Origin: Flavobacterium sp. 9
GTDB taxonomy: Bacteria; Bacteroidota; Bacteroidia; Flavobacteriales; Flavobacteriaceae
Assembly (NCBI RefSeq): GCF_002754195.1
Contig: NZ_PEEU01000001.1
Span: forward strand, 2,790,001-2,854,000
DNA length: 64,000 nt
Reading direction: 5' to 3'
Below the pieces are notes generated by a model. That model had not been told where the DNA came from and did no database searches. It was given only the letters and a program-made list of their open reading frames with translations. Of the stretch, positions 1 through 29,295 are shown one piece after another. The translations under genes were made by a program, and so were the position numbers. Each line of letters opens with the position of its first letter. The first letter of the stretch is position 1.

Positions 1-1125
1 CCTTGTGGTAATGGATTAACGGTTATCGTTGCGGAACCTCCGGTGAAACCGGAACTTCTTATACAGGTATTTGCATCGGTAACAGAAACTAAAGTATAGG
101 TTGTTGTGCTTAAAACTGAGGTAACTGCTGTTGCAAAAGCTGCTCCGCTTGCTACACTCACACTACGATTGGCAACTCCGTCATTATAAACTACCGTAAA
201 AGGTCCTGTTCCGGATGTTGCGGTAAAAGTTAATTGTCCAGCACCAGTTGCACAAAATGGGCCATTGGCTGACAAGCTTCCTTGTGGTAATGGATTAACG
301 GTTATCGTTGCTGAACTTCCGGTGAAACCGGAACTTCTTATACAAGTATTTGCATCGGTAACCGAAACTAAAGTATAAGTTGTTGTACTTAAAACCGGTG
401 TAACAGCTGTTGCAAAAGCTGTTCCGCTTACTACACTATTTGCGGTACGATTTGTAACACCATCATTATAAACCACAGTAAATGGTCCGGTTCCGGATGT
501 TGCGGTAAAAGTCAATTGTCCAGCGCCGGTCGCACAAAATGGACCATTGGCTGATAAGGTTCCTTGTGGTAATGGATTAACGGTTATCGTTGCTGAACCT
601 CCGGTGAAACCGGAACTTCTTATACAAGTATTTGCATCGGTAACCGAAACTAAAGTATAAGTTGTTGTACTTAAAACTGGTGTGACGGCTGTTGCAAAAG
701 CTGTTCCGCTTACTACACTATTTGCAGTGCGATTTGTAACGCCATCATTATAAATCACAGTAAATGGTCCTGTTCCGGATGTTGCGGTAAAAGTCAATTG
801 TCCGGCGCCAGTTGCGCAAAATGGACCATTGGCTGATAAGCTTCCTTGTGGTAATGGCCTAACGGTGATCGTAGCTGAACCTCCTGTGAAACCAGAACTT
901 CGTACGCAAGTATTTGCATCGGTAACCGAAACTAAAGTATAAGTTGTTGTACTTATAACTGGTGTAACAGCGGTTGCAAAAGCTGTTCCGCTTACTACAC
1001 TATTTGCAGTACGATTTGTAACGCCATCATTATAAACTACCGTAAACGGTCCTGTTCCGGATGTTGCGGTAAAGGTCAATTGTCCAGCGCCAGTTGCACA
1101 AAATGGGCCATTGGCTGACAAGCTT
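1..1125 (-). repeat. Tandem 279/282-bp coding repeats (4 units in view)
   Basis: The phrase CCTTGTGG recurs at 1, 280, 562, 844 and 1126, giving one 279-bp unit and three 282-bp units. All stay in the reverse reading frame and encode 93-94 residues each. The 279-bp unit differs by one codon. The array may continue past position 1. Confidence 0.9.
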
Positions 1126-2516
1126 CCTTGTGGGGATGGATTAACAGTTACGGTTGTTGCTGTAGAATTTAATGTAGAGCAAGTACCACTTTGCACTACA
1201 GCTCTAAATTGTGTAGTTTGTGTAAGTGCGTCCGAAGTATATGTTGTTGTTGTATTTGCAACAGATGTAGGTGTCCAAGTTGAAAACGGAGTTGTTGAAT
1301 ATTCCCATCTTAGAACTGAACCTACATTTCCCGTTAATAATAAAGGACCGCTTGTCGAACCATTGCAAATTGTAGTGCCTCCGCCAACTGATCCGGCTAC
1401 TGTCAACGGCGAAATTGTTACAGTAGTTGAAATTCCTGAAATGGGAGAAACACAAACTCCAGAAGATAATCCTGTAACAGCAATAGAACTTGTGCCTGTA
1501 GTTGTTAAGCCTACAGCTGTAAAAGTTCCTGTACCAGCTGTAGTTACTGTCATTGCTGCAGTCAATCCTGTCGCGGCTGGTGTGCCTCGATTATAAGTAA
1601 CGGTATAAATACCTATAGGTAAAGATGCAGCACTCGATGTAACTGTTACGGAAGATGTTCCTGGAGTAATACAAACATTCGTTGCTGATATTCCCGTAAT
1701 ATTATAAGTTGGACATGTATAAGTAACTGTAACTTGTCCATGAGCTCCTGAACCTCCTACTTGAGAAGGATTTCCTACGGTGTGCAATCCACCACTACCG
1801 CCACCACCGGGTGGGCTACCTACATTTCCTGGTCCATTACCTAATAATAAAGTTGAAAGAGCTGCACCTCCGGCACCACCTCCGGTACCACCAGCATTAC
1901 CACCAGCCCCAGATGAAAGACCCAAACTTAATAAGGCAGCATTTCCATTTCCTCCATTTATCCCAGAAGCTGTTGAAATGGAACCAATCGAAGCACTGCC
2001 TAATCCACCTGCTCCACCACTAGGTGTACCGCCTGCTGTATTGGCTGTACCTCCTGCTCCACCAACTGCTAAAATAACTGTTTCAAAACCTTGTATTGTT
2101 GAACTGCCTCCTGCTGTTCCACTTGAAGTTGTTCCAGTAACCGCTCCGGCAACTTTAATATTTAAAGACACTCCTGATAATGGATTAACTGTTATAAGAC
2201 CATTTGCATATGCGCCTCCACCTCCTCCTGCACCACTTCTTCCGCTAAGTAAAGGAGAAATACCCGCACCTCCTCCAGCACCCCCAGCACCCCATGCCTT
2301 AATATCCATAGAGGTAATCCCTGCCGGAATAACTACTGTGCCGTCAGCTGTAAATATATGTGGTGGCTGAGCCCATAATGATGTGCATATAAAAGATAGA
2401 ACTAAAGCTAGTTTGAACTTCGCACTATGAAATGTTTTTCTATTTTGTTCATTTCGAAAAAAAGATTCCTTTAGAAATGGAAGAAAAATCAAATAATTAA
2501 GTAAGGCTTTTTTCAT
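1..2516 (-). CDS. Giant repeat-containing secreted surface protein, C-terminus beyond window (partial)
   Basis: The reading frame is open from an ATG at 2516 to the window edge, giving at least 838 residues. An in-frame ATG lies 9 bp upstream at 2525. I prefer 2516 because the leader aligns with those of the genes starting at 8401 and 20602, where the position equivalent to the upstream ATG is ACG. The N-terminus has a long basic stretch, then a hydrophobic signal core (about residues 35-49) ending SLWA|Q. A glycine-rich domain (WGAGGAGG, about 65-260) and Ig-like sequence follow. Next come four tandem units of 93-94 residues (key piece FCATGAGQLTFTA), encoded by 279-282 bp repeats. The domain order matches its neighbours at 2996 and 13178, so a T9SS sorting tail is expected outside the window (inference). 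Probable role is adhesion at the cell surface. Confidence 0.85.
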   Translation of the reverse strand, partial: MKKALLNYLIFLPFLKESFFRNEQNRKTFHSAKFKLALVLSFICTSLWAQPPHIFTADGTVVIPAGITSMDIKAWGAGGAGGGAGISPLLSGRSGAGGGGGAYANGLITVNPLSGVSLNIKVAGAVTGTTSSGTAGGSSTIQGFETVILAVGGAGGTANTAGGTPSGGAGGLGSASIGSISTASGINGGNGNAALLSLGLSSGAGGNAGGTGGGAGGAALSTLLLGNGPGNVGSPPGGGGSGGLHTVGNPSQVGGSGAHGQVTVTYTCPTYNITGISATNVCITPGTSSVTVTSSAASLPIGIYTVTYNRGTPAATGLTAAMTVTTAGTGTFTAVGLTTTGTSSIAVTGLSSGVCVSPISGISTTVTISPLTVAGSVGGGTTICNGSTSGPLLLTGNVGSVLRWEYSTTPFSTWTPTSVANTTTTYTSDALTQTTQFRAVVQSGTCSTLNSTATTVTVNPSPQGSLSANGPFCATGAGQLTFTATSGTGPFTVVYNDGVTNRTANSVVSGTAFATAVTPVISTTTYTLVSVTDANTCVRSSGFTGGSATITVRPLPQGSLSANGPFCATGAGQLTFTATSGTGPFTVIYNDGVTNRTANSVVSGTAFATAVTPVLSTTTYTLVSVTDANTCIRSSGFTGGSATITVNPLPQGTLSANGPFCATGAGQLTFTATSGTGPFTVVYNDGVTNRTANSVVSGTAFATAVTPVLSTTTYTLVSVTDANTCIRSSGFTGSSATITVNPLPQGSLSANGPFCATGAGQLTFTATSGTGPFTVVYNDGVANRSVSVASGAAFATAVTSVLSTTTYTLVSVTDANTCIRSSGFTGGSATITVNPLPQ

Positions 2517-2995
2517 AAGAGGCATTTTAAATAATTAAAAAAACAGACCCATAATCAAATTATGAATCCTCTTAAAAAACTTTAGATACCATATAAGCAG
2601 AACAGGAACGCAAAAAAACGTTCTGAAAACTTAGAAAGAGATGTAGAAATAAACGTTAAGTACTTATTTGCTTATTTAATGGTATTTAAATTTAACAATC
2701 AGTATTTAGGCGAATAAAAAACTAAAAAATCATCTTAGTTTTTAAGAGTAGTGATTAAAATTGTATTACAACAGGCTTTTATATAAGTTCGTCGACTATA
2801 ACCTACAACAAGGTACGATTTTATTTACAATATAAAAATATTTTAACGTAAAGAGTTGTTTTTTAACATATTGAAATCAATAACACTCTGTTTTAGAAAA
2901 AAATGTTAATACTCAAAAACCTCTGAGGAAAAGTTATTGCACAAAAAAAATCCATTCCGTAAAACGAAATGGATTCCTTACTTTTTAAAATATTA
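2517..2995. other. 479-bp intergenic region between two surface-protein genes
   Basis: AT-rich spacer with no convincing ORF. It holds the leader of the gene starting at 2516, including an AGGCA (reverse TGCCT) motif just before the start that matches two other leaders. It also holds the hairpin terminator of the gene ending at 2996. No clear TAnnTTTG promoter box was found. Confidence 0.6.
2943..2975 (-). terminator. Hairpin terminator of the 1801-residue surface protein
   Basis: Arms 2949-2960 (AATCCATTCCGT) and 2964-2975 pair with one mismatch. On the minus strand they are followed by a run of eight T. Near-identical hairpins follow three other surface-protein genes in this window. Confidence 0.85.
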
Positions 2996-5900
2996 TCACT
3001 CAAATATAACCTTTCTGGAGGTTGAATGCCCATTTTCTAAAACAATTCTAACCAGTAGAACCTGATTTCCGGATTGCAAATTTGATATCAACAATTCAGT
3101 ATTCGTTATTTTATTTTTATGATAAAGCATTTTTCCTGAAACGTCAAACAGGACAACTTCTCTAAGTGATTCTTTAGTTGATGTTACTTTTATAATTTTA
3201 TCTTTTACGGATACCAAAACATCATTTTCAGGATTTTCAAAATCTCCTGTTCCAAGGGTTTTATCTATATAACTAATAGTAAAGCGATCAGTAAAAGTTC
3301 CTATTGCAGTTGTAAATGTATAATTACCAGCTTTTAAGTTTGTAACCTTTCCTGTTAATTTATCTTCCAGATATACTCCCTGATTATTGAAAAGCCCATC
3401 AGCGTGATCGATTGCAATAGTAAAATCGCCTGCAATGGTCGTTTTATATCCTAATGGAACCTTATCAGTATCTAAAAATGGTAATGCCCGACCTTGAATC
3501 GTTAGTTTTTCACTTTCATTTATACTGTAAAAATCTATAAAACTATTACTTTCCATTGTAGTTGCATCATAATTAACATCCCAACTATTTGATGCTCCTT
3601 CGATATAACTAATTAACAGTTGTTTGAAAGCTCCCTTAGTATTGGTTAAATTCAGCCATAAACGATTTTTTTCTAAAACTCTTGTTTTTGTTGTTTTGAA
3701 AAACTCTCCATTGTTTCCGCCAACTCGCATGTCATTTGTAAACTTAACAGGGTCCGGGCCTGAAGCCTGCATAAAGAAAGACTGACAAGCAGCTATTTTT
3801 CCTGATGGTGGGGATTCATAAGTTCCGTCAGGCAATCTGGCTCCAGTTGAAATTCCACCGGACAAACTAAAAACAGCATAATCGTTACTGGTATAATCAT
3901 AAGTGCCACCAGTTGAAGCTGTGCTGCTTGGAGGAGTATTATGTGTCCAAAAGTATAAAGCTCCAACATCTACAGACGGTGATGCGAAATGATTTGTATT
4001 AATAAATTCCTCTGCATCTATTGCTGATGGATAAGGATTTCCTATTAAACTCCATTTTGTTGCAAAAAGCGGAACTGAATAATCTCCATTATTAGGAACA
4101 CCAGTAAAAACTGCAGGATAAATTGCAGGAGCAGTAATAGAAAAATTTTGTGGTGCTCTGATTACATATCCTATAGCAGGTTTCATTTCATCTGTTCCGT
4201 TTAAATTGATATGCCATGCATCTGCTGAAGAATCATAGCTCTCATATTTGTCTAATAATGTCCCTGGTGACAAGTCATGCATTGTATAAGCTGGAATTCT
4301 GGTTATTGGCGCTGACCAATAGGTAAAATCATATCGACGAACCGGTTCTGTATCTCTATGATATATAATGTTTCCTGTATTAACTGCATTCGTTATTTGT
4401 ACCAGACTGGCATCATTCATAAATATCAAATTAGTTCCAGCTCCTGAATCAACATTTAGTTCTTTTTCTATTGTTAATGTATGTCCTGAATTTATGGTTA
4501 CACTTTTTCCGGAATCAATCTTACATGAGCAGACATTTAAATCTCCTGTTGATTGATAATCTCCAGAAAATTCAACACTATCTGTATTTAAAGGAAGACC
4601 TCCTTTGGACCAAACTGTTCCGTCCCAAATATTTGTAATTGGTGCCTTAATCTCTAAACTTATTGTTGGTAGCGAAGCGCAATTCACCCCATCTTCAATC
4701 GTAAAATTATAATTTCCGGGTAATAAATTAGAAATTGTATAAGTGGTTCCAGAAGCCGAATAAGTTCTCAAAACAGTTCCGCTTTGAGTAATAACCCATG
4801 TTGGTGTAGAAAGTAAACCATTTAATACAATACTTCCTGTTGGATTACTGCAAGTAGGTTGTGTAATTGTTCCGGATATTGGAGTAGATGGCAAAGGTTT
4901 TACCACAATAGTTCCCGCAGCACTAACAGGTCCACAACCTCCTGTTAATGGAATACTATAATTAAAAGTCCCTGACTGTGTTGGAGTACCACTTATCGTA
5001 ATTGTATTGGATGCCCAACTTGCAGAAACTCCTGTTGGTAAATTTACCGGCACACCAATTCCCGTTGCACCAGGAGTGGTATGTGTAATATTTGGCATTA
5101 TAGTGTGAGAACAAATTGATGGAGATGTTGACGCTGCTCCAACTGTATCTAAATTTACAACAATTGTTCCGGTTGCATTCACTACACTACAACCTCCCGT
5201 TAATGGAATAGTATAACTAAAAGTCCCCGACTCTGTTGGCGTACCACTTATCGTAATTGTATTGGATGCCCAACTTGCAGAAACTCCCGCAGGCAAATTT
5301 AACGATGCTCCAATTCCTGTTGCGCCAGTAGTAGTATGCGTAATATTAGGCATCAAGGTATTTATACATAATATTGGAGAGGAAGAAGCTCCTGTAACAG
5401 TGTTTTCTGCGTTAACAATAACCGGATAGATATCTGTGACTGTGTAAGCTGTAGAACACGATGGCGAAGCAGTTACGGTCATCGTTAATGTAATCTGTTT
5501 TCCAGCATCGGCGGCTGCGGCTGTATATGTAGGTGTTAATGTTGTGGCTCCTGCCGAAATTGTTCCAGCGCCATTATGTGTCCATAAAATGGTTCCGTTT
5601 GAAGCGTTTGCCTCTCCGCTCGCGAGTGTAACTGATCCGTTTGAACACGTACTTTGCGTACCGGAAATTGACGCTGTAGGTGCAGCCTGAATATTTATAG
5701 TATAAGCTGCTGTGGCGATTTGTGGCATACAAGCATTAGTACTTGTAACTGTCATTGTTAAAACAACTGTTCTAGCAGCTCCCCCCATAACCGGAGTATA
5801 GGTCGGTGTCAATGTAGTATCATTTGTTAAAGTACCTGCACCACCGCTAAACGTCCATTTTATATTTCCATTTGTTGCCGATGCTCCTGTTACGGTTACA

Positions 5901-8401
5901 GATTGATTAGAACATATTGTTGCACTTCCGCCAGCAATTGCAGTGGGCAAACCTTGTACTGTTACGGTTGCCGCCGGAGAATCTGCACTTGAACATCCAC
6001 CTGAATTAACTGCTTTTACAGTATAACTACCGGCTGCAGTAGCAAATATAGATGAACCCGTTTCTCCTGTAGACCAAACATATGTATATGCAGCATTAGG
6101 ACTAACTACATTAAGACTTACTCCATCTGTCTGACAAATTGTGCTAGAAGTTGGTGAAATAGCAGGAACCGCAGGCACAGGCGTAGTTGAAGTGTTTGCT
6201 ATTGTAGAATTTGCACTTGTTCCACAGTTATTTGTTGCTCGCACTCTATAATAATAGATCGTATTTGCCGATAATCCTGTAATATTTTTCGTTAGCACAT
6301 TACCAACATTTAAACCATTGTAAGCGGGTAATATATTCGCCGTAAAAGCTCCGCCCGGCTGGGTTGAAACATCTATAATATAACTTGTTGCACGAGTAGC
6401 CAAAGCCCAATTTATTGTAATTTGAGTACATGTTTGCCCTGTAGGTGTACTTACTGTAGGCACAGTTGGCGTTCCTGAACCTCCCGTTGTAGTGCCATAC
6501 ATTATAATATTAGAATTAGCACTTGTACCACAAGTATTAGTAGCTCTAATTCTGTAATAATATGTAGTATTCGCATTTAATCCGGTTACATCGAAAGTAA
6601 GCACATTTCCAACATTCAAACCATTGTAAGCGGCTAATATATTATTTGTAAAAGCAGTTCCAGATGCTTGGGTAGAGACATCTATAATATAACTTGTTGC
6701 TCTTAAAGCCGAAGACCAATTTGCTGTAAATTGAGAACATGTTTGACCTGATCCTGCATTTGCAGTAGGCGTTGCAGGAATTCCAGCTGCGGTATTAGTT
6801 GTAGTACTATATGCAATAATACTAGAACTTGCACTTGTAGCACAACTATTAGTAGCTCTAACTCTATAATAATAGTTTGTATTTACAGCCAATCCTGTAA
6901 CATCTTTCGTTAAAACATTTCCAACATTTAAATTATTGTAGCCAACTAACATATTTGCATTAAAGTTGGCGCCATTTTGTGTAGATACATCTAAAAAATA
7001 ACTAGTTGCACCTGATACTGCTGCCCAACTTGCAGTTATTTGTGAACACGTTCTTCCCGAACCCGCATTTGCGTTTGGCACTGCAGGAGCTACTGTAGTT
7101 GCATATGTTATAATATTAGAATTAGCACTAACGCAAGTACCATTATAAGCTCTTACTCTATAATAATAAGTATCATTTACCAAACCAGTTATATTAAATG
7201 TAAGCACATTGCCAACATTACGCGCGCTATAACCTGTAACAAAAGTCGCAAAAGTATTATCTGTAGAAACATCTAATTCGTAATACGATGCACCTGAAAC
7301 AGCTTGCCAATTAGCAGTTATTTGAGTACAAGTAGCACCAGTACCTGCTAAAGCTACCGGAGCTGTTCCTGATGAATTTACTACAACTGTCGCTAAATTA
7401 AATTGTGTTATTGTCGAAGTACAATTTTCAGAAGCTACTGTGCTTGATCCGGATGTTAAGGCAGTAATTTTTATAAATTTAGAACCAACAGCAGTAAAAC
7501 CAGTTGCAATAAAAGATCCGGTTCCGGCTGTTGTTACATTCATTGATGAAGGAGTTTGTGCGACTCCTTGTATTTCATAAGAAACTTTATAAAGACCAAT
7601 AGGTAAAGTTCCTGTTAAAGTAATTTCTGAAGAGCTTCCGGAACAAACATTTACTGCTGAAGCAACTGCACTGGTTAGGCTATAAGTTGGACAATTATAA
7701 GAAATGATTACTTTTCCGTCTCCACCATCTCCACCTGCTCTGGCACTTTGAAAAAAAGAAGATCTACCACCACTACCACCACCTCCCGGAGGATTCCCCG
7801 GATTACCCGCATTAGTAACAAAGGCTCCTGTAATTGCAATCCCACCCGTTCCTCCACCATTTGCAGCGTTTCCACCAGCGCCTGAACTAATAACTGATCC
7901 GGTATCATCAACAAAACCTGATTCTCCGGCAAGACCAGGAAATCCAGAGATTGTAGTTGTTCCAACAGATGCTCCACTGGCACCTCCTAAACCTCCTATA
8001 GGTTGGTTTCCTGTATTTACAAGACCTCCTTTTCCTCCATCAGCTTTAAGTGAAAATCCTGTAATGGCAGAAAAACCTCCAAAATTTCCATTTGCACCGG
8101 AAACTCCTTTTCCTCCGGCTCCAACAATTACTGGCAATAAAGCCCCGGATGTTATAGTCAAAGTGGCACTTGCAAACGCACCTCCACCACCTCCGGAACC
8201 AGCTCTTGCACCGCTAAATCCGGGAGGAGGAGTCGAGCTTCCTCCGGCGCCACCGGCACCCCAGGCTTGTACATTGATTGAAGTTATTCCCGCAGGACTA
8301 ACAAATGTTTGTGAACCTGCAACCGAAAATGTGGTTGTAGTTTGTGCGTAGAAAAAAATAGGAAAACAAATCAATGATGGAATAAGTAAAGATCTTTTCA
8401 T
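2996..8401 (-). CDS. T9SS-secreted surface protein with glycine-rich, FN3 and Ig-like domains (1801 aa)
   Basis: Signal peptide of about 19 residues ending FFYA|Q. A glycine-rich domain (about 30-230; WGAGGAGG) follows, then an Ig-like stretch. Four fibronectin-III-like repeats span about 350-740; each has a TQITANW-like start and a YYYRVRA core. PKD/Ig-like repeats run to about 1160, including two copies built around SGTP and a Cys-rich edge. The C-terminal module starts near 1257 (WDGTVWSKGG) and contains RRYDFTYW and IGNPYPSAID. The last 80 residues (from LGTGDFEN to RKVIFE) resemble the tail NCBI curators call T9SS sorting signal type C. Known T9SS cargo is exported across the outer membrane and often surface-anchored; adhesion is inferred. 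It carries its own terminator and is probably monocistronic. Confidence 0.88.
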   Translation of the reverse strand: MKRSLLIPSLICFPIFFYAQTTTTFSVAGSQTFVSPAGITSINVQAWGAGGAGGSSTPPPGFSGARAGSGGGGGAFASATLTITSGALLPVIVGAGGKGVSGANGNFGGFSAITGFSLKADGGKGGLVNTGNQPIGGLGGASGASVGTTTISGFPGLAGESGFVDDTGSVISSGAGGNAANGGGTGGIAITGAFVTNAGNPGNPPGGGGSGGRSSFFQSARAGGDGGDGKVIISYNCPTYSLTSAVASAVNVCSGSSSEITLTGTLPIGLYKVSYEIQGVAQTPSSMNVTTAGTGSFIATGFTAVGSKFIKITALTSGSSTVASENCTSTITQFNLATVVVNSSGTAPVALAGTGATCTQITANWQAVSGASYYELDVSTDNTFATFVTGYSARNVGNVLTFNITGLVNDTYYYRVRAYNGTCVSANSNIITYATTVAPAVPNANAGSGRTCSQITASWAAVSGATSYFLDVSTQNGANFNANMLVGYNNLNVGNVLTKDVTGLAVNTNYYYRVRATNSCATSASSSIIAYSTTTNTAAGIPATPTANAGSGQTCSQFTANWSSALRATSYIIDVSTQASGTAFTNNILAAYNGLNVGNVLTFDVTGLNANTTYYYRIRATNTCGTSANSNIIMYGTTTGGSGTPTVPTVSTPTGQTCTQITINWALATRATSYIIDVSTQPGGAFTANILPAYNGLNVGNVLTKNITGLSANTIYYYRVRATNNCGTSANSTIANTSTTPVPAVPAISPTSSTICQTDGVSLNVVSPNAAYTYVWSTGETGSSIFATAAGSYTVKAVNSGGCSSADSPAATVTVQGLPTAIAGGSATICSNQSVTVTGASATNGNIKWTFSGGAGTLTNDTTLTPTYTPVMGGAARTVVLTMTVTSTNACMPQIATAAYTINIQAAPTASISGTQSTCSNGSVTLASGEANASNGTILWTHNGAGTISAGATTLTPTYTAAAADAGKQITLTMTVTASPSCSTAYTVTDIYPVIVNAENTVTGASSSPILCINTLMPNITHTTTGATGIGASLNLPAGVSASWASNTITISGTPTESGTFSYTIPLTGGCSVVNATGTIVVNLDTVGAASTSPSICSHTIMPNITHTTPGATGIGVPVNLPTGVSASWASNTITISGTPTQSGTFNYSIPLTGGCGPVSAAGTIVVKPLPSTPISGTITQPTCSNPTGSIVLNGLLSTPTWVITQSGTVLRTYSASGTTYTISNLLPGNYNFTIEDGVNCASLPTISLEIKAPITNIWDGTVWSKGGLPLNTDSVEFSGDYQSTGDLNVCSCKIDSGKSVTINSGHTLTIEKELNVDSGAGTNLIFMNDASLVQITNAVNTGNIIYHRDTEPVRRYDFTYWSAPITRIPAYTMHDLSPGTLLDKYESYDSSADAWHINLNGTDEMKPAIGYVIRAPQNFSITAPAIYPAVFTGVPNNGDYSVPLFATKWSLIGNPYPSAIDAEEFINTNHFASPSVDVGALYFWTHNTPPSSTASTGGTYDYTSNDYAVFSLSGGISTGARLPDGTYESPPSGKIAACQSFFMQASGPDPVKFTNDMRVGGNNGEFFKTTKTRVLEKNRLWLNLTNTKGAFKQLLISYIEGASNSWDVNYDATTMESNSFIDFYSINESEKLTIQGRALPFLDTDKVPLGYKTTIAGDFTIAIDHADGLFNNQGVYLEDKLTGKVTNLKAGNYTFTTAIGTFTDRFTISYIDKTLGTGDFENPENDVLVSVKDKIIKVTSTKESLREVVLFDVSGKMLYHKNKITNTELLISNLQSGNQVLLVRIVLENGHSTSRKVIFE

Positions 8402-9137: not shown

Positions 9138-12100
9138 TTAAAAAGGTATTTTTTTTGTTATCGAATTTCCATTTTCCAATGTCACTTTTACAAGTAAAAT
9201 TTGATGTGCTGAAAACAAATTCTGAATGGTTAATTTACTTGTATCCAATTTATTTTTTCTATAGATTCTTTTTCCAGAAATATCAAAAACAACAACTCCA
9301 TTTATATTTTGATTTTTGGCAGTAATAAAAATCATTTTATCTTTTTCCCAAACTACAACATCATTGTCCTGAACCTCAAAATTGCCAATACTTAATGTTT
9401 TATCAGTAAATTTTACTATAAAACGATCGCTAAAGGTTCCTATTGAAGAATTAAAGAAATAGGGTGATTGAGACAAATTATGAATGGTCTTCAAATCTTT
9501 ATCTTCAATAAAAAAATTTGTTTTCTCAAAAATCCCGTCTTTGTGATCAATACTAAAATTAAAATTACCTTCGATTCCTACTTTAAAACCCAATACAATA
9601 GAATCATTTTCGGTAAAAGGCAGAGCACGTCCCTGAATTACTAATTTTTTATTTTCAATAATACTATAGAAATCCACATACTGATTACCAATCATACTTA
9701 GAGCATCATACTTATCATCAAGTTCGTTGGTCGCTCCATCAATATAACCAAGTAGAATTTGTTTAAATATACCTTCATTATTTCTTAGGTTCAACCAAAA
9801 TCTATGTTTTTCAATTGTATTTTCATTTGAAACTTTATCTCGGTTTGCAGGTTTAAAAAAACGTTCGTTTCTTCCCACAATTCTCATTTCGTTGGTAAAA
9901 CTGGCAAATCCTAAATCTTTACTTTGCAGAAAAAAAGATTGTCCTGCTGCAATCGCACCATTCGGCTCTGTTATAGCAGAAACCAAAGTCGTTGCGGCGG
10001 TACTAACTCCTCCAAGTAAATTATAAGTTGCGTAGTCATCAGCTGTATATTTAAAATTGGTTATTGGTGTATTATGAGTCCAGAAATAAAGTGCTCCTTT
10101 TATTTTTAAGGCATTATTCATCAAAAAAACATCCGCATTAATTGCCGACGGATAGGGATTTCCAACTAAATTATAACTGTCCTCCGTTCCCAAATCAACC
10201 TTTATTTTTCCATTATTCGGAATCCCTTTAAAAGTAGCTTCAAATACAGATCGTTCTGTAATTGAAAAATTCTGTGGCGCTCTAATAACATATCCTTTGC
10301 CTACAATCATGATATTGGAAGGTTTCTCGAATGTCCAGCTTTCTGACAAACTATCATAAGATTGATATTTATCCAATAACGTATTTGGAGAAACATCGAT
10401 CAATTTTTGATTTTCCACGGGAGAAGACCAATAGGTAAAATCATATCTTAAGACTGGCTTTGTTTTTCTTTTAAAATGAATAATTCCTGTATTTATCATA
10501 TCATCGTCTGATTGATATAAACTCGCTGAATCTTCTAATACTAACGTTCCTAAACCTATATATGAAAATTCAATTCCTAAAGTATTACCACTTAATAATG
10601 TGACTGTTTTTCCTTCGTCAATAGAGCAACTACAAATATTTGTAGTTGTCAAGGAAGCAAAATTTTCTCTAAAAAACACTTCCTTACCAACTGATGGCTT
10701 TCCATTATCCCAGGAAATGCCATTCCAGATTGTAGAATCAACGCAGAGTTTCAGACGTGCAATTCTATGTTTTGTAATTTTGGAAACAGAATTAAAATTC
10801 CCTCCTATTAATAGTCTATAATCTGATGTAAAACTCATTGCAAAAAGAGTATTGTTCAAAGGAGCATCAAAAGAGACATCATTATCCCCATTTTTCAACA
10901 ACCGTATAAACCGCTGAGAAGGCAATTTTTTGTAGGTTCCGGAGAAAGTTCCTCCTACCAGAATTCTATCATCGGGCTGAACAAGAATACTGCGAACTTC
11001 TCCTTTGCTAAAACCTGTACCTGAATCAAATGTAGTATCTAAACCACCATTAGAGTTTAGCCGAAGTATTCGTTTTTGTGCAGCTTTGTTATAGCTTAAA
11101 AAAGAACCTCCAATGATTATTTTCTGATCAGATTGTAGTGCGATTACATAGATGTTTTTATCGAAACCTTCGCCAATATTAAAACCGGAATCAATACTTC
11201 CGTCGGAATTTAAGCGGACTAAACGAGCGAAACTATTTCCATTAAAACTATTAAATCTTCCTCCTGCCAAAATTTTTCCGTCAGGCTGAATTAAAATCGC
11301 CTCAATAATAGCGTCAGCACCAAGGCCTGTATTAAAGCTATTATCACGAGAACCATCTGACAATAATCTAATAATTCTTCCCACTCCGGTTGAACCATTA
11401 TAGGCGGTAAAATTGCCTGCAACAATTACTTTTCCATCTGACTGGATTGCCATTGCATATATCTGACTATTGAATCCGGATCCGATATTAAAATTAGTAT
11501 CAATTGTTCCATCAGGAAAAACTCTGGTTATCCGATTGGAGATTACATCGTTATACTTTGTAAAGTTTCCTCCAAAAACAATTTTCCCGTCTGATTGTAA
11601 TACGGCAGATTTTATGAGATTATTTGCTCCTGATTTATTAGAATTAAAAGATAGATCAGAGAATCCGTTCTCTAAAAGTCGGGCGATTCTAAAAATTGGG
11701 TCGCCATTAAATTTGGTAAAACTTCCAAAAATCATTGTTTTATTATCTTCTAATGGCAAAATTTTTAAAACCGAATTATCAAAACCAACTCCTGCAGACA
11801 GGTAACTACTATCATGATCTCCATCTGGGTTAACTTTTACTAATCTGCCTTGATTTTGCCCGTCAAAAGTTAAAAAAGATCCTCCAATATACCACGAGCC
11901 ATTTGAGTCATTTATTAATGCTAAAACAGAGCCTGAACCTGGTCCGGATTCTATATCAAAATCTGAATTTAGAGTTCCATTAGAATTTAAAAGAAAAACT
12001 CTATTAATTGCATTGCCATTATATAAGCCAGCGAAAGATCCTCCAACCATTATTCGACCCGCAGCATCTATTTTGACTGTTTGAACCGCTCCTCCGTTTA

Positions 12101-20887: not shown

Positions 20888-21361
20888 ATGAAATCATTCT
20901 GCACCCCCAAAGAAGCCTTACTTAAACTCGAGCACTTTTGTGCCTATCAGGAGCGCTGTCATGCAGAGGTTGTTTCGAAATTATACAGCTTAAAAATGAC
21001 CAATGATGAATCGGAACAAATCATAGTTCAGCTAATCGAAAGTAACTTTTTGAACGAGACTCGTTTTGCCTGCAGTTTTGCCAGAGGAAAACACAGAATG
21101 AAACAATGGGGAACTATCAGAATAACAAATGAATTAAAAGCAAGACAAATTTCTCCAACCAATATCACCATAGCCTTAAAAGAAATATCTCCTGAAGAGT
21201 ATGACACAACTTTTCAGCAATTATCAGAAAGATGTTGGGAAAATTTACGTGAAAAAGACGTGCTGAAAAAGAGAAAAAAATTCTGCGATTATATGTTAAG
21301 ACGCGGTTTCGAAAGTTTTTTGGTTTATGATAAAGTAAAAGAATTGGAGAAAAATTCATAG
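20888..21361 (+). CDS. recX: Regulatory protein RecX
   Basis: 157 residues, the normal size for RecX, which binds RecA filaments and limits their activity. The pattern of three helical repeats is visible: LLKLEHFCAYQERCHAEV, then IIVQLIESNFLNETRFACSF with RMKQWG, then a C-terminal CDYMLRRGFESFLVYDKV. The start at 20888 is the first ATG of the frame and matches the family N-terminus. It is transcribed alone, between two divergently oriented surface-protein genes. Whether it matters for the repeat-rich neighbours is speculation. The cytoplasmic role rests on family knowledge. Confidence 0.9.
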   Translation: MKSFCTPKEALLKLEHFCAYQERCHAEVVSKLYSLKMTNDESEQIIVQLIESNFLNETRFACSFARGKHRMKQWGTIRITNELKARQISPTNITIALKEISPEEYDTTFQQLSERCWENLREKDVLKKRKKFCDYMLRRGFESFLVYDKVKELEKNS

Positions 21362-21802: not shown

Positions 21803-24800
21803 ATGAAGAAAACTCTACTTTTATTTTTATTGTTACCTTTTTTTGGAATTGCACAAACTGATCTTGCTAAGTGGAATGCTGTAAACAGCAATTTATACAA
21901 GCCAACAGTTAAACCAAATGTAGTAGCTGCGGATATTTCTGCTACGGTAAATTCTTCAGATTTTAAATACGTTAATAATTCAAATGAAAACGTATTTTAT
22001 GACAGTTCAGGCTGGCCAGTTCCTTCAGCAAATGGAGGTACTTATGATCCAACCAAATATATTTCTTTGCAGATTACAGCTGCAGCAAACTACAAACTAG
22101 ATTTGTCCAGTCTAAGTTTTGAATGCAGATCTCAAGGAAACACAAATAATTTCAGAATTAAATATTCCAAAGATCCAAACTTTGTAACCGGAGTTAAAGA
22201 CCTGATGGCCGAAACAATAAGCACATCTACATGGACAACATACAATCCGTCTTTTTTACCTGAAATCAATCCTGTACTCCCTACCCAAACTGTGTATATC
22301 AGGATCTATGTTTATAATACCAACAATAACTTTCAATTAAAAATAGGCTCGATAGCAACAAATGGAGGTCCTACAATAAAAGGAAACATCACTAACTTTG
22401 ATCCTAATTCACTTCTGGCAATAAATGATTATGTAACAACCACAAAAGATCAGGTAAGTAACATATCGCTAATAGGCAACGACGTTAAGGGTTCATCAAA
22501 TATCAATAGCCTGACACTTACAACAAGACCAAGCGCGAGTGAAGGAACTATTACTGTTAATCCAGATTATTCGGTTACTTTTAATCCTGCTTTATCCTAT
22601 ATTGGCAGCACTTCATTTATGTATACAATTACAAACGCTACACAATCCTCTACTGCAACGGTTTACTTAACCGTTAATGACTTTCAGGAAGAAAATCTTG
22701 CGTTATGGAACGGTGCTTCATCAAGTCTTAATCCTGTACTTAACAGTAATGTAACTTCAGGACCAATAACTGCATCCGGAGGCGTACAGTTGACACCCGT
22801 TAACAATTCCGGAAGTAATATATTTTTTGAAACTTCGCAGTGGCCTACTCCTGCCGTAAATGGTGAAAATTTTGTCCAATCTACACCCAAATATGTAACC
22901 TTTAAGATTTCACCAGATCAGAATCATAAAATCGATTTGACAACTTTCAGCTTTACGCACAGAAAAATTTCAAGTGATGGTCAAAAATTTCAAGTGCAAT
23001 ACTCTAAAGATGCTTCTTTTGCTACAGGTGTAAAAACATTTGTTGCAGAAACATCAAGCACAAATAGCTGGGCAACAATAACAAAAACTTTTGCCTCAGA
23101 TGCAAGTACGCTTGTACCTAATGAAACTATGTACATTCGATTTTATGTTTATAATACCAACAATGCTTTTCATATACAAAACGGTAACGGAAACAGTATT
23201 GGACCTGTAATCAAAGGGTATGTAAGAGGTCTTGACACCCTAACAGCATACAACGATGCAGCAACTACACCATCAAATCAAAGCATTCCAATTCCAGTTT
23301 TAAATAATGACGTCAAAGGAACTATTCCTTTACAAACTATGACGGCGACACAACCTGCCACAGGAGGTTCTGTAGTTGTAAACGGACTAACTGATATTAC
23401 TTTTACTCCAACTTCCGGATTTATCGGAACATCTACATTTACGTACACTTTATACAATGGAAGCATTTATTCATCTGCCACAGTAACTGTAAACGTTACA
23501 GCACCACCATGCGTTGCTACCCCAACGCCGGGAATTAATCGTTGGAATGGATATGTATACACTTACACAGGAACACCAGCGCCAACTACATATGTTGGAA
23601 CGGTTTATGAAAATCCAAATTTTGAAAGAGATGTACAATACGGAACAATAACAGGCGACCAAAGTGTTGCTGCTGATAATTTTTGTGGTCCGGTACCCGC
23701 CGAAAATTTTATGGTGCGTTATTTAATGCAAACAACGACAACAGCAGATACTTACAATTTTACAATAGGAGGAGATGATGGTGTTCGACTGTATATTGAC
23801 GGAAACATAGTTACTCTTTCGCCAACAGATTCATGGAGCGATCATGGCTATAACACTTATGTAGCTCAGGTTGCGTTAAATGCCGGAACACATAATTTTA
23901 TACTTGAATATTATGAAAAAGGAGGAATCGCAAGAGTATCCTTTTCACATGGCGCGGTGATAGGAACTAATGCCTCACTTCCGTTTGGAATTAATAAATG
24001 GAACGTTTACGGTTTCAATTTACCAGACATCAATTTGCAAACTGCAAGTTTTGCGGGAATGTATGTTGATCCAAATCTAAACTTTGACACACAACTTTTT
24101 TGGAATAAAACAAAATCACCTTCTTATTACTCTGGTTGGCAAGGTGCTCCAATGCCTATCGACAATTTTACTATTACTTACAAACGTAAGGGCTTTCCAT
24201 GCGGTCGCTATCAACTTGTGCTGCCAAATTGTGATGATGTGGCAAAAATTTTCATTAATGGAGTTGACATTTTTACTCAAAATGGCTACAGTAATGCTAA
24301 TGTACAGGTAAATGGAAATACCACATATTTCCTAAACGAAAATTCTACAGTAGAAGTACGCCTTAGAGAAGATGCCGGTGATGCTAATGTTGCTCTTACT
24401 TTTATTGATACACCAACTGAATATAATGGCACGGGAACTATTCCCCCAAACTCAACTTCTATTAAAATAACTGCAAATACAACTTTAAGTAACGATATCG
24501 AAGTTTGTTCTTGTACGATTAATCCAAATGTGATTCTTACCGTACCTTCTAACAAAACATTGACGGTTAACCAAAATATAACTGTTGGAACGGGTGGAAA
24601 ACTTCTGCTTGAAGATGGAGCATCATTACTACAAACTAGTACCACAACAAATGCTTATCAAGGCGCAGCAGATTCTTTTCAGGTACTAAGAAACACAGAT
24701 TTAGTGAAACGCTATGATTTTACGTATTGGTCAGCGCCAATAACCAAAATTCCAGCTTATACTATGCATGACTTGTCACCAGGTACATTATTAGACAAAT

Positions 24801-26050
24801 ATCAGAGTTATGATTCCTCAGCAAATGCATGGAAGATCAATTTAAACGGAACAGATGAAATGAAACCTGGTGTAGGATACGCAATTAGAGCGCCACAGAA
24901 TTTTTCAATCACAAATCCAGTGACTTATCCTGCAACTTTTACGGGTGTTCCTAATAATGGTGATTATTCAGTTCAGCTTTATGCCACAAATTATAGTTTA
25001 ATAGGAAATCCTTATCCATCAGCGATAGATGCACAAAAATTTATTACTATAAACCACAATGCTACACCATCTGTAGATGTTGGATCATTGTACTTTTGGA
25101 CACACAATACACCTCCAAGTGATAAACCTTCAGCAGGAGGAACTTATGATTACACCAGTAATGATTATGCTGTTTTAAACCTATCAGGATCAACTTCTAC
25201 AGGTGCAAAACGACCTGACGGAACTTACGAACCTGCACCATCAGGAAAAATAGCTTCTTGTCAGTCTTTCTTTATGCAGGCTTCTGGTCCTGGTGTTGTT
25301 AAGTTTACAAATGATATGCGTGTAAGCGGAAGCAACAATGAGTTTTATAAAACAACAAAAACAAATGAGCTCGATAAAAGTCGTATTTGGTTAAACCTTA
25401 CTAGTAATCAAGGAGCTTTCAAACAAGCTTTGGTTGGTTATATCGAAGGTGCAACAAATGACTGGGATGTTAATTATGATGCAACTACGATGGCTGGAAA
25501 TTCTTTTATAGATTTCTACAGTATTAATCAAGCAGATAAATTGAGTATTCAAGGGCGTGCTTTACCATTTACAGATACTGACAGAATTCCATTAGGATAT
25601 AAAACTACTGTTGCAGGTGATTTTACAATTGCAATCGATCATGCTGACGGATTATTCGATAATCAGGCAGTATATCTGGAAGATAAAACGACAGGAAAAG
25701 TTATAGACCTAAAAGCTGGTAATTATACTTTTACAACTGCAATAGGAACTTTTACAGATCGTTTTACAATTGCTTATACCAAGAAAACTCTTGGAACAGG
25801 AGATTTTGAAAATACTGAAAACGATCTTTCGGTTTCTGTAAAAGAGAAAACAATCAAAGTAATTTCTACTAAAGAAAACATTAAAGAAGCTGCTATTTAT
25901 GATATATCAGGAAAGCTTCTTTACAATAAAAAGAAAGTTGACGCAGCTGAATTACTGGTACAAAACCTTCAATCAGCCAATCAGGTTTTATTGGTAAAAA
26001 TAACATTAGACAATGACTATGTTGTAACAAAGAAAATCATATTTAATTAA
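21803..26050 (+). CDS. T9SS-secreted protein with PA14-like domain and cadherin-like repeats (1415 aa)
   Basis: Signal peptide of about 17 residues (FFGIA|Q). Two homologous blocks begin LAKWNAVNSN and LALWNGASSS. Each is followed by an Ig/cadherin-like piece with a LxNDVKG motif (about 225 and 500). A PA14-like domain lies near 595-695 (GGDDGVRLYIDG), with a related block after it (CDDVAKIFINGVDI). PA14 domains in secreted proteins often bind sugars; binding here is inferred. The C-terminal module (RYDFTYWSAP, GNPYPSAID) and tail (LGTGDFEN to KKIIFN) match the other island members and predict T9SS export. Its RYDFTYW region is closest to the protein at 2996-8401. A separate terminator follows. 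Confidence 0.88.
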   Translation: MKKTLLLFLLLPFFGIAQTDLAKWNAVNSNLYKPTVKPNVVAADISATVNSSDFKYVNNSNENVFYDSSGWPVPSANGGTYDPTKYISLQITAAANYKLDLSSLSFECRSQGNTNNFRIKYSKDPNFVTGVKDLMAETISTSTWTTYNPSFLPEINPVLPTQTVYIRIYVYNTNNNFQLKIGSIATNGGPTIKGNITNFDPNSLLAINDYVTTTKDQVSNISLIGNDVKGSSNINSLTLTTRPSASEGTITVNPDYSVTFNPALSYIGSTSFMYTITNATQSSTATVYLTVNDFQEENLALWNGASSSLNPVLNSNVTSGPITASGGVQLTPVNNSGSNIFFETSQWPTPAVNGENFVQSTPKYVTFKISPDQNHKIDLTTFSFTHRKISSDGQKFQVQYSKDASFATGVKTFVAETSSTNSWATITKTFASDASTLVPNETMYIRFYVYNTNNAFHIQNGNGNSIGPVIKGYVRGLDTLTAYNDAATTPSNQSIPIPVLNNDVKGTIPLQTMTATQPATGGSVVVNGLTDITFTPTSGFIGTSTFTYTLYNGSIYSSATVTVNVTAPPCVATPTPGINRWNGYVYTYTGTPAPTTYVGTVYENPNFERDVQYGTITGDQSVAADNFCGPVPAENFMVRYLMQTTTTADTYNFTIGGDDGVRLYIDGNIVTLSPTDSWSDHGYNTYVAQVALNAGTHNFILEYYEKGGIARVSFSHGAVIGTNASLPFGINKWNVYGFNLPDINLQTASFAGMYVDPNLNFDTQLFWNKTKSPSYYSGWQGAPMPIDNFTITYKRKGFPCGRYQLVLPNCDDVAKIFINGVDIFTQNGYSNANVQVNGNTTYFLNENSTVEVRLREDAGDANVALTFIDTPTEYNGTGTIPPNSTSIKITANTTLSNDIEVCSCTINPNVILTVPSNKTLTVNQNITVGTGGKLLLEDGASLLQTSTTTNAYQGAADSFQVLRNTDLVKRYDFTYWSAPITKIPAYTMHDLSPGTLLDKYQSYDSSANAWKINLNGTDEMKPGVGYAIRAPQNFSITNPVTYPATFTGVPNNGDYSVQLYATNYSLIGNPYPSAIDAQKFITINHNATPSVDVGSLYFWTHNTPPSDKPSAGGTYDYTSNDYAVLNLSGSTSTGAKRPDGTYEPAPSGKIASCQSFFMQASGPGVVKFTNDMRVSGSNNEFYKTTKTNELDKSRIWLNLTSNQGAFKQALVGYIEGATNDWDVNYDATTMAGNSFIDFYSINQADKLSIQGRALPFTDTDRIPLGYKTTVAGDFTIAIDHADGLFDNQAVYLEDKTTGKVIDLKAGNYTFTTAIGTFTDRFTIAYTKKTLGTGDFENTENDLSVSVKEKTIKVISTKENIKEAAIYDISGKLLYNKKKVDAAELLVQNLQSANQVLLVKITLDNDYVVTKKIIFN

Positions 26051-26069
26051 ACCTACAATTATTATATGT

Positions 26070-26220: not shown

Positions 26221-29200
26221 ATGCCCCATAAAACATTATTGCCTAATCATACCTTTTTTATACCAAAAATCGTATTGTTTTTTCTGTTGATTTCTTTTAA
26301 GATGTCTAGTCAAACCAAAATAACAACAATATACACAGACTGGAACGGCTATTGGAAATCAAATGCTTTAACCGCTGCTGGAAACAGACCTGATACCGAA
26401 AACAATTTACTGGCTTTTGAATGGAATAACAAGACATATTCTACAGGAGTAAATGATAATATTCTAAATGGAAAGTCTATTACGTATAGTTCTCAAAAAT
26501 TTAGAGCGCTAAAAATTCAAACCCTGGGTTTAGACCCGGCGTCTATGTATTTTTTACAAGGTTCAAAAATAGACGGAGATGATGCAATTACAAAATTAAT
26601 TCCCCCACTCGCAGGAACGACTGCAACAGGCGCCGAACTTGCTTCCCGACTTACAGATGGAGTTAACGGTTTAACTCTTGGAACGGGTATTGCCAATATA
26701 AAAGCAGGTTCAGCTGAATTTAAAGTGGGAACAAATAATCTTAATCTAAACGGTCTTGACGACAAAATTCCCGATTTAATTGTAACTCAGGTTGCAGAAC
26801 CGGGAGGTAACGCAGATACTTTCAAATTTGTAGACAAAGACAATAATGTTGTCGGTCATGCCTTATCTACAAATTTTGGTTCAATGTCAGCTATTGGTAC
26901 TTATAGCCTGGATTTATTCCGAGCTGATAATGCTGCCAGGGCTTTTACGCCCGCTGCAACCAGAGACATTCGAATGTTGGCAATTGAAACCAGCGAATTT
27001 GGTATTACAGCAGCAAATGCTGCAAGTGTCGATCGTTTTGTGGTTACTTTTTCCGGAAGTTCCGATTGTGCTTTTATAGCTTTTAATACCAATTCACTAA
27101 AAATCGCAGAGTTAACTTTGGTCACAAAAGGCACATTAACATCTTGCGGAAAAGCTGGAGACAAAATAAACTACACCTTTGAGGTAACCAATACTGGAGA
27201 AGTTCCTGTCACTGACATTAAAGTTACCGATGCCTTAACCGGAATAGCAATATCAGGAAATCCAATTGCATCATTGGCCGTTGGTACAAAAACAACTCTA
27301 ACAGGAGTTTACACTATTACAGCAGCAGATGTTACTGCAGGTAAAATTATAAATACCGGAAAAGTTACCGGAGTCGATCCTTCATTAAACACCGTTGAAT
27401 TTAATAATACACCTGCAACGACATTTTTGTTAACACCGCCAACGATCTCTAGTTTTACAAATACAACCTGTACCACTTTGGGAACTATTACATTAACTGA
27501 TTTACTAGCTAGTGGAACATGGACTGTTGAAAGAAGTCCGGGAGCAGTTAAAACTACGAGCTCAGGAACATCAATTATACTGACAGGAATTCCGGCTGGA
27601 AAATATACTTATAAAGTTTACAACTCCTGTTTCATGTCGCCATCAAGTGCTGAAGTTACCATTACAAATCAATCTTCTACAACCTGGGATGGAACCACAT
27701 GGTCTACTGGTGATCCAAATGCAACCAAAAGTGCCATATTTGCTGGACCTTTTACAATAACAGCAGATATAGAAGCTTGTTCCTGCACCATTAACTCAGG
27801 AGTTAACATAATTGTCCCTGCAGGACGTACTTTAAACATTAAAAATGCGCTTAATGTTGTCTCTGGAGGATCTCTAACATTTCAGAACAATTCAAGTTTA
27901 TTGCAAACTAATGGAGTAACCAATACTAATACCGGCAATATTATCTATCAACGTAATACAGAACCAATTCGCCGATATGATTTTACTTATTGGTCAACAC
28001 CAATAACAAATGCTGCTCAGCCCTATAAACTTAAGGACTTATCTCCGGGCACTTTATTAGACAAGTATCAGAGTTATAATTCGACAGGATCATCATGGAA
28101 CATCCATTTAAACGGATTGAAAGATATGGAACCTGCTGTAGGTTATGCAGTAAGAGCTCCGCAAACTTTTTCGATTACTGCTCCAGCAGTTTATCCGGCA
28201 GTTTTTACTGGAACCCCTAACAATGGAAATTATACAGTTCCAATATATGGCGCAAAATGGAGTTTAATAGGCAACCCGTATCCATCAGCAATAGATGCAG
28301 AAAAATTTATTAAAATTAACCATGATGCTTCACCATCTGTAGATGTTGGATCATTATACTTTTGGACACACAATTCTCCGCCAAGTAGCACGCCTTCAGC
28401 TGGCGGTTCTTATGATTACACCAGTAACGATTATGCTGTCTTCAATTTATCTGGCTCAACAGGAACAGGCCCAACACCTCCACCATCAGGTAAAATAGCT
28501 GCCTGTCAATCTTTCTTTATGTTGGCTTCAGCACCTGGAATTGTTAAGTTCACAAATGATATGCGTATAAGCGGAAGCAATAATGAGTTTTATAAAACCA
28601 CAAAAGCAAATGAGCTCGAGAAAAATCGTGTATGGTTAAATCTTACCAGTAATCAAGGAGCTTTCAAACAAGTTTTGGTTGGGTATATCGAAGGCGCAAC
28701 AAATGACTGGGATGTTAATTATGATGCTGCTACAAATAATGGGAATACTTTTATAGATTTCTACAGTATTAATCAAGCAGATAAATTGATTATTCAGGGT
28801 CGCGCTTTACCATTTGCAGATACAGATCGCGTTCCGTTAGGATATAAGACTACAGTTGCTGGCGATTTTATTATTTCAATCGATCATGCTGACGGATTTT
28901 TTAACAATCAGGCAGTATATCTGGAAGATAAAACAACTGGAAAAGTTACAGACCTAAAAGCAGGCAACTATACTTTTACAACTGCAATAGGAACTTTTAC
29001 AGACCGTTTTACAATTGCTTATACCAAAAAAACTCTTGGAACAGGAGATTTTGAAAACACTGAAAATGATGTTTTGGTTTCTGTAAAAGAGAAAACAATC
29101 AAAGTAACTTCTACTCAAGAAAACATCAAAGAAGTTGCTATTTATGATATTACAGGAAAACTTCTTTACAATAAAAAGAAAGTTGATTCGGCTGAATTAC

Positions 29201-29295
29201 AAATACAAAACCTTCAATCGAGCATTCAGGTTTTATTGGTAAAAGTTACTTTAGAAAATGACTTTACATTAACCGAAAAAATAATATTTCAATAG
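26221..29295 (+). CDS. T9SS-secreted protein with DUF11-like domain and shared C-terminal module (1024 aa)
   Basis: A hydrophobic signal segment spans about residues 12-30, ending near KMSSQ. Residues about 30-290 are an unrecognised domain that looks beta-rich. About 300-400 is a DUF11-type conserved repeat (NYTFEVTNTGEVPVTDIKV), common in large surface proteins. The C-terminal module starts near 480 and ends in a T9SS type-C-like tail (LGTGDFEN to EKIIFQ). The stretch from EKNRVWLNL to LGTGDFEN is almost identical to the protein at 13178-20602. The last 80 residues instead resemble the neighbour at 21803-26050, so the C-terminus looks mosaic. The function is unknown; surface exposure is predicted. 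Confidence 0.87.
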   Translation: MPHKTLLPNHTFFIPKIVLFFLLISFKMSSQTKITTIYTDWNGYWKSNALTAAGNRPDTENNLLAFEWNNKTYSTGVNDNILNGKSITYSSQKFRALKIQTLGLDPASMYFLQGSKIDGDDAITKLIPPLAGTTATGAELASRLTDGVNGLTLGTGIANIKAGSAEFKVGTNNLNLNGLDDKIPDLIVTQVAEPGGNADTFKFVDKDNNVVGHALSTNFGSMSAIGTYSLDLFRADNAARAFTPAATRDIRMLAIETSEFGITAANAASVDRFVVTFSGSSDCAFIAFNTNSLKIAELTLVTKGTLTSCGKAGDKINYTFEVTNTGEVPVTDIKVTDALTGIAISGNPIASLAVGTKTTLTGVYTITAADVTAGKIINTGKVTGVDPSLNTVEFNNTPATTFLLTPPTISSFTNTTCTTLGTITLTDLLASGTWTVERSPGAVKTTSSGTSIILTGIPAGKYTYKVYNSCFMSPSSAEVTITNQSSTTWDGTTWSTGDPNATKSAIFAGPFTITADIEACSCTINSGVNIIVPAGRTLNIKNALNVVSGGSLTFQNNSSLLQTNGVTNTNTGNIIYQRNTEPIRRYDFTYWSTPITNAAQPYKLKDLSPGTLLDKYQSYNSTGSSWNIHLNGLKDMEPAVGYAVRAPQTFSITAPAVYPAVFTGTPNNGNYTVPIYGAKWSLIGNPYPSAIDAEKFIKINHDASPSVDVGSLYFWTHNSPPSSTPSAGGSYDYTSNDYAVFNLSGSTGTGPTPPPSGKIAACQSFFMLASAPGIVKFTNDMRISGSNNEFYKTTKANELEKNRVWLNLTSNQGAFKQVLVGYIEGATNDWDVNYDAATNNGNTFIDFYSINQADKLIIQGRALPFADTDRVPLGYKTTVAGDFIISIDHADGFFNNQAVYLEDKTTGKVTDLKAGNYTFTTAIGTFTDRFTIAYTKKTLGTGDFENTENDVLVSVKEKTIKVTSTQENIKEVAIYDITGKLLYNKKKVDSAELQIQNLQSSIQVLLVKVTLENDFTLTEKIIFQ

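Follow-up and report, generated by a model that had tools for sequence, protein, structure and literature searches.

A Flavobacterium island of putative RemA/RemZ-family adhesins combines variable heads with one conserved C-terminal unit

What is the long block of sequence that precedes the sorting signal in a cluster of giant surface-protein genes of Flavobacterium sp. 9, and does it do more than accompany that signal? The cluster lies in a 64,000-nucleotide (nt) stretch of contig NZ_PEEU01000001.1 (genome positions 2790001-2854000, hereafter the window), which is part of a single-contig genome of 6.33 Mb. The first 29 kb of the window contain five complete giant genes and a sixth truncated by the left edge, and their products are 1024-2474 residues long (Table 1). 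We read this island as an expanded adhesin locus of the RemA/RemZ family in which variable heads are mounted on a shared export-and-base unit, and we give this reading a probability of about 70%. That the proteins are RemA/RemZ-family adhesins of the type IX secretion system (T9SS) is, taken by itself, close to certain in our estimate.

The shared C-terminal unit and its relation to RemA and RemZ

The first-pass annotation of the window had five of the six genes ending in one module that starts at a WxGxxW motif. An alignable C-terminal unit of 532-556 residues is indeed found in all five complete genes, and the matches of the gene 6 unit within its own genome have E-values of 6e-138 to 0, which excludes chance. 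The edge-cut gene 1 also carries the unit, outside the window, so that it is common to all six genes; the gene 6 unit is 47-79% identical to the other island copies. The WxGxxW motif does not mark the start of the unit in every copy: in the alignment it is absent from gene 5, and gene 4 has an insertion at this place. The unit consists of a collar (84 alignment columns), a core (366), a linker (12) and a C-terminal sorting domain (CTD, 76). The strongly shared block begins near a RYDFTYW motif, from which the core extends for ~365 residues to the ~76-residue CTD. An extra ~90-residue immunoglobulin-like (Ig-like) stretch ('TQPTC...PGNYxFTV', recognized by eye) lies ahead of the module in genes 1, 2, 4 and 6 and would sometimes make the shared unit longer.

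A search of the genome with the gene 6 unit (E ≤0.001) finds six places only, all inside 33 kb. No seventh copy is found at this threshold with either the single module (28 candidates) or the core alignment (22 candidates). The sole extra match of the whole-unit alignment is the tail of a chitinase-like protein (glycoside hydrolase family 18 (GH18) motif by eye), from which the rest of the unit, including the core, is absent.

The gene 6 module aligns with RemA (Protein Data Bank (PDB) chain 8gl6_D, residues 921-1436; E 3.1e-184; query residues 14-539 of 539) and with RemZ (8gl8_D, residues 575-1113; E 7.1e-174; query residues 3-538 of 539), and the other five island copies are tied to both proteins through their alignment with gene 6. 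In gene 1 the similarity includes the head, residues 73-662 of which match residues 1-604 of RemZ (8gl8_D, E 2.6e-141), and gene 1 is a candidate RemZ orthologue with an added repeat array.

The modelled CTD of gene 6 has an Ig-like fold, with structural matches to 8gl6_D (RemA), 8gl8_D (RemZ) and also to the CTDs of RgpB and mirolase; on RemA 8gl6 the root-mean-square deviation is 1.1. The sole invariant CTD residue is a lysine that aligns with RemZ Lys1110 and is present in all six island copies and in all 45 ungapped rows of a 46-member alignment of the unit. Lauber et al. (PMC10994853) describe this lysine as highly conserved and functionally important. For them RemZ (Fjoh_0803) is a T9SS substrate of Type A and a RemA homologue, of which the CTD alone is well resolved inside SprA/PorV. 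The genome of Flavobacterium sp. 9 encodes SprA, PorV-family and PorU-type sortase genes, each above cut-off. Homology and the modelled fold point to the island CTDs as SprA/PorV-binding domains. The shared export unit proposed in the first-pass annotation is thus real, its tail being the already structurally solved tail of RemA and RemZ. A second strong PorV-family protein (422 bits) is encoded outside the window (G000:C1:1012658-1013680, minus strand) beside a 2614-residue open reading frame, one stretch of which weakly matches a T9SS sortase profile; this frame is possibly a T9SS substrate with its own shuttle, the PorV-family neighbour.

By the NCBI family models the island tails are of type C. 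NF033708 (type C, cut-off 40 bits) scores above cut-off at seven places among 15 matches in the genome: the six island genes, at the extreme C-terminus in each, and the chitinase-like protein. The five complete island proteins fall below the cut-off of TIGR04183 (type A, 23 bits), the best score being 20.5 bits (gene 4) and gene 3 giving none. They have no match at E ≤0.01 to TIGR04131 (type B, SprB type), which is also not among the families listed for the 46 members of the unit alignment. All 46 members carry a type C tail, and 21 of them also match TIGR04183 at E ≤0.01; these members were picked on their resemblance to the complete unit with its tail. Naming differs between sources, as the RemA and RemZ tails are Type A for Lauber et al. 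and type C for the NCBI model.

The core as a probable separate domain

Structure prediction supports the block ahead of the tail as a probable domain of its own. The gene 6 module (538 residues) is modelled with a predicted local distance difference test (pLDDT) score of 86.7, and the core alone (366 residues) with a pLDDT of 87.3 and a predicted template modelling score (pTM) of 0.85; linker residues 452-461, directly before the CTD, have pLDDT values below 50. The core shows no clear fold match to solved structures in the PDB. Thirteen Pfam families each match one of the 46 members (best E 0.0043), there is no consistent hit over the gathering score, and the block does not resolve into domains that have a name.

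Across the 46 aligned copies, gaps ignored, 31 of 366 columns are invariant in the core, compared with one of 76 in the CTD, none of 12 in the linker and two of 84 in the collar (31, 0, 0 and 1, respectively, if gaps are counted). Averaged over pairs of copies, identity reaches 0.45 in one half of the core and 0.50 in the other, as against 0.37 for the CTD and 0.38 for the collar. Since the core is more conserved than the export domain itself, it is unlikely to act as a mere spacer.

The module is not confined to the island proteins, a possibility that database and genome searches rule out. It is matched by 3159 proteins at E ≤1e-3 (of 7992 length-restricted candidates scored), and the core is present in 26 of 31 Flavobacterium genomes (own genome included, every candidate scored). 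In a phylum-wide sample of 395 Bacteroidota genomes, 64 match the unit to some extent, many of the distant genomes showing a partial match or one limited to the tail; at most three candidates were scored per genome, so copy numbers are lower bounds. In 20 stretches from diverged carriers (one of the same genus, the rest at family to phylum level) the core model matches open frames in 18, several matches being partial and that in L167 marginal (14 bits), and matches no open frame in L166 and L169. Of ten C-termini scanned, each from a different one of these 18 stretches, nine are type A above cut-off, none is type C above cut-off and one is of neither type. With the diverged carriers mostly of type A, the core would accompany T9SS tails in general and not one tail type.

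The core also occurs in proteins without a head. Short open frames of 599-643 residues with a core match are found in at least 15 of the 31 Flavobacterium genomes, one of them (G425) in two pieces. The 12 of these 15 that were read (L181-L192) encode proteins of ~610 residues that begin with a hydrophobic, signal-like stretch (by eye), followed by a short collar, the core and a T9SS-type tail; their mean pairwise identity is 0.47. A search with one such protein finds 2563 proteins at E ≤1e-3 of 7993 scored. Among the 120 matches listed, lengths are 592-653 residues, a range that is narrow partly by construction because candidates were limited to 0.55-1.75 times the query length. Three headless proteins that were scanned score above the TIGR04183 type A cut-off and below that of NF033708. 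Seven of the 12 loci have the same three neighbours on one side, which in L184 are a PALP enzyme and a glucosaminidase/LysM protein, both assigned with Pfam, and a gene read by eye as a probable hemL; four others have a ~500-residue protein with no Pfam match next to the headless gene. No gene partner of the headless protein is established from these neighbours, with one locus of the PALP group scanned. A secreted-type protein of little beyond the unit offers the strongest indication that the unit may act by itself.

The first-pass annotation had further suggested that the long block has its own function, such as a stalk base or partner-binding domain. The half of this suggestion that concerns its standing as a domain is supported by the confident fold, by conservation above that of the tail, and by the occurrence of the core with other tails and in headless proteins; the particular role is conjectural.

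What the core may do

In the proposed mechanism each gene would give rise to a secreted surface-type protein consisting of a variable head, a short strand-rich collar, the conserved core ('base') and the T9SS sorting domain. As in the work on RemA and RemZ, export would proceed by Sec and then by the T9SS via the CTD, the last ~76 residues being equivalent to the domain which, in the solved complexes, is bound within SprA and to PorV. The PorU sortase would cut the flexible linker ahead of the CTD, and after cleavage the core would form the membrane-proximal end of the mature protein, with the head carried outward. The likeliest function of the core would be that of a generic, head-independent base, which keeps the protein on the cell surface or links it to an anchor or track; the odds that it is a base or anchor domain are in our view roughly even.

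Work on RemA mobility bears on this point. According to Paillat et al. (PMC12618676), RemA with a HaloTag before the CTD forms immobile and highly mobile foci and is also found in the medium, and SprB bearing the RemA CTD is immobile, giving static foci or release. Because the latter fusion is immobile, the CTD would not explain the mobility of RemA, and the head or the core must; the core is the more general candidate, as it is common to all these proteins.

It is improbable that the core is itself the effector or ligand-binding domain (e.g. in carbohydrate binding or catalysis), to which the heads are accessory. A little more improbable still is a core that forms part of an enlarged export signal or an intramolecular chaperone, which would keep a long head unfolded in the periplasm or aid its exit through SprA and have no function outside. 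Core and export do stay linked, through the type C tails of all island copies and all 46 alignment members and the type A tails of nine of ten diverged relatives. However, mCherry and sfGFP fused to the RemA CTD alone are secreted, according to both studies (PMC10994853, PMC12618676), the chitinase-like protein of this genome has a type C tail without the core, and the headless proteins have almost no passenger that would need help. The same fusions and the chitinase-like protein speak against a requirement of the whole pre-tail block for export.

Probable exchange of heads

The N-terminal regions, initially taken to be unrelated, are only partly so. Genes 1, 2 and 4 all have Gly_rich_2 (PF21722), and heads 2 and 4 show 34% identity across 481 residues, which counts against full independence of the heads; those of genes 3, 5 and 6 do differ (DUF5122 propeller, Big_9 and DUF7507, respectively).

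Genes 4 and 6 show 86% DNA identity across 1504 alignment columns, and within this stretch identity in 100-nt windows reaches 95-99%. The homology sets in ~70-80 nt ahead of RYDFTYW and continues into the 3' flank, as far as 90 nt beyond the end of the gene, yet BLAST finds no match between the two heads. In the pairs 5/6 and 2/5 homology starts one base from RYDFTYW and stops short of the gene end by 6 nt and 35 nt, respectively; the heads of genes 5 and 6 have no BLAST match either. As RYDFTYW is itself conserved, these edges are suggestive and not exact junctions. Between about -1850 and -1000 nt, genes 1 and 2 are 69% identical in DNA. Outside this genome, the module of gene 5 is 95% identical to that of protein P0011, whose head is 56% identical, and the closest head is that of P0066 (73%), whose module is only 60% identical.

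Similar patterns are seen in 78 distinct loci, which were picked by module similarity from at least 577 confirmed stretches and are thus near relatives. Together with the island, and once heads truncated at a locus end (22 of 147 locus proteins) are set aside, they contain 131 proteins with untruncated heads, of which 129 were assessed after two short heads had been dropped. The protein with the closest module has a non-homologous head in 64 of the 129 cases (43 at another locus, 21 at the same locus), where heads count as non-homologous if 40% of the shorter one is not covered by a BLAST hit at E 1e-5, a rule that leaves room for remote homology. In 31 there is no BLAST hit whatever between the two heads. 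With cut heads included, 146 of 153 proteins could be assessed, 73 of them with a non-homologous head. In pairs from the same locus the heads are non-homologous in 75 of 79. In seven of nine pairs from other species the homologous block reaches back 1.4-1.9 kb from the gene end, so that it probably includes the collar; RYDFTYW was located in the window pairs and L026 only, and the junctions of the other eight pairs are not placed against it.

These comparisons support recombination of core and tail as a block between genes with differing heads. Such exchange, in Flavobacterium often located at a single chromosomal site, would equip an export-and-base unit already in place with new heads. The modular display with swapped heads envisaged in the first-pass annotation is supported by the genes 5/6 edge, the 64 non-homologous heads and the 31 of 129 cases without any head hit. 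Tandem duplication of whole genes without swapping, in which heads diverge very fast under selection on top of a constrained module, would agree with how common adjacent paralogues and fast-evolving surface heads are, with the identity retained by heads 2 and 4, with a homologous head at the closest module in 65 of 129 cases (61 at another locus, four at the same locus) and with some head BLAST hit in 98, but is highly improbable given the sharp 5' edge and 3' flank homology of the 95-99% identical genes 4/6 windows without a head match, and the different closest relatives of the gene 5 head and module.

A recurrent chromosomal site

The island is flanked by a bioB-like gene on the left (by eye) and by a ketoacyl synthase and bioA- and bioD-like genes on the right. 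The recX-like gene between genes 4 and 5 is one of the fixed genes at a recurrent site: in 50 of the 78 related loci at least one of recX, the ketoacyl synthase, bioA, bioD and bioB is found at ≥50% identity, and in 54 any anchor of a wider set. In the 13 loci with both recX and bioB, 33 of 35 core-bearing open frames fall between them. The bioB-recX site is a recurrent home for the family, not its sole home. In the open-licence PubMed Central (PMC) literature searched, mostly titles and abstract openings, we found no description of the core as a domain, of its headless form, of the bioB/recX site by itself or together with head exchange, or of head swapping.

Several observations weigh against reading the island as variable heads on a shared export-and-base unit. 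The 65 cases with a homologous head make ordinary co-inheritance as common as swapping. As for the site, 24 of the 78 related loci have no anchor gene, and since 12 of these are longer than 20 kb, cut ends cannot account for all; in several genomes, moreover, cores are spread over several contigs or lie far apart. The headless proteins form a subfamily that has diverged (90-137 bits for the core, against 513-540 for island copies) and may do something other than the island copies; this genome has no headless protein, its only answers to a headless query being the island proteins. The difference in RemA mobility could arise from its lectin head and not from the core. The substrate-bound translocon structures of PMC10994853 are reported to lack ordered density for any passenger domain, which suggests that binding between the core and SprA is not tight. 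The analysis found neither a partner nor an anchor or ligand for the core, and surface display of the six island proteins is a prediction.

A broader proposal would make the core an unnamed Bacteroidota domain of new fold and a general surface base of T9SS adhesins (the missing anchor or track adaptor of RemA-type proteins), active by itself in the headless proteins as well as behind many different heads. It would also make the bioB-recX-bioA site a recombination hotspot for cassette-like head swaps, resembling a surface-variation locus. We hold this proposal to be unlikely.

Features of the island and its surroundings

Table 1. Features of the island. Positions are those of the window, except where given as genome coordinates (G000:C1).
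Feature	Position	Strand	Description
bioB-like gene (left flank)	G000:C1:2783751-2784848		named by eye
Gene 1 C-terminal module	G000:C1:2786214-2787818		just beyond the left window edge
Gene 1	3..2525	-	cut by the window edge, head portion inside the window; full protein 2104 residues; Gly_rich_2
Tandem repeat in gene 1	1-1150		282-bp unit
Gene 2	2996..8401	-	1801 residues; Gly_rich_2, fibronectin-III-like domains, module
Gene 2 module	2999..4636	-	core 3266-4381
Gene 3	9138..12995	-	1285 residues; DUF5122 / delta-60 beta-propeller repeats, module
Gene 3 module	9141..10736	-	core 9405-10493
Gene 4	13178..20602	-	2474 residues; two Gly_rich_2 stretches, DUF642, repeat array, module
Gene 4 module	13181..14848	-	core 13448-14545
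Tandem repeat in gene 4	15137..17459	-	261-bp unit, 8.9 copies, 98% matches
recX-like gene (RecX_HTH2)	20888..21361	+	between genes 4 and 5
Gene 5	21803..26050	+	1415 residues; Big_9/cadherin-like domains, PA14-like stretch, module
Gene 5 module	24401..26047	+	core 24650-25780
Gene 6	26221..29295	+	1024 residues; DUF7507 head, module
Gene 6 module	27679..29292	+	538 residues, structure-modelled
Gene 6 core	27928..29025	+	366 residues, modelled alone
Right flank	29419..32703	-	beta-ketoacyl synthase, class-III aminotransferase (bioA-like), AAA_26 protein (bioD-like)

Gene 3 is the most diverged of the island copies, and the PA14 match of gene 5 lies slightly below the PA14 cut-off. The repeat arrays of genes 4 and 1 are likely to vary in length among strains. 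Beside the biotin-type genes, window positions 32883-34861 encode a sigma-70-type factor (33487-33990), a 204-residue open reading frame with no Pfam match and a TraB/GumN-family protein. Further along, at 47137-47967, an IS3-like transposase frame (integrase core, HTH_21) lies between other genes. Scans of the whole window gave no Rfam match and no tRNA.

Comparison with known systems

The cited papers lack a settled account of how PorV-dependent T9SS adhesins stay on the cell, or of how RemA moves. The core is a direct candidate for adhesin anchoring, being more constrained than the sorting domain, present with several tail types and found in a nearly stand-alone form, and the island offers a natural system for studying the exchange of surface heads in gliding bacteria.

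The island proteins are new members of the known RemA/RemZ kind. Two sorting-signal families cover part of what they share with it. The island tails match NF033708 (ChiA-type tail, NCBIfam), but this model spans the last ~55 residues and leaves the ~365-residue core outside. With the type A domain (TIGR04183 / PF18962) they have the Ig-like fold in common, although the complete island proteins score below its 23-bit cut-off.

The head of RemA is a galactose-binding (SUEL) lectin. RemA (Fjoh_0808, a mobile surface adhesin; PDB 8gl6) resembles the island proteins in the module and the CTD fold, but its SUEL lectin domain PF02140 has no match at E ≤0.01 in the five complete proteins or in the part of gene 1 inside the window; a search across the genome likewise gave no match, although its controls stayed silent too. 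RemZ (F. johnsoniae; PDB 8gl8/8glm/8gln) is like them in the whole module, the CTD fold and the conserved lysine, and its head is like that of gene 1. The two differ in length, the PDB record of RemZ having 1114 residues and gene 1, with its 282-bp repeat array, encoding 2104, and unlike RemZ, genes 2-6 of the island carry other heads.

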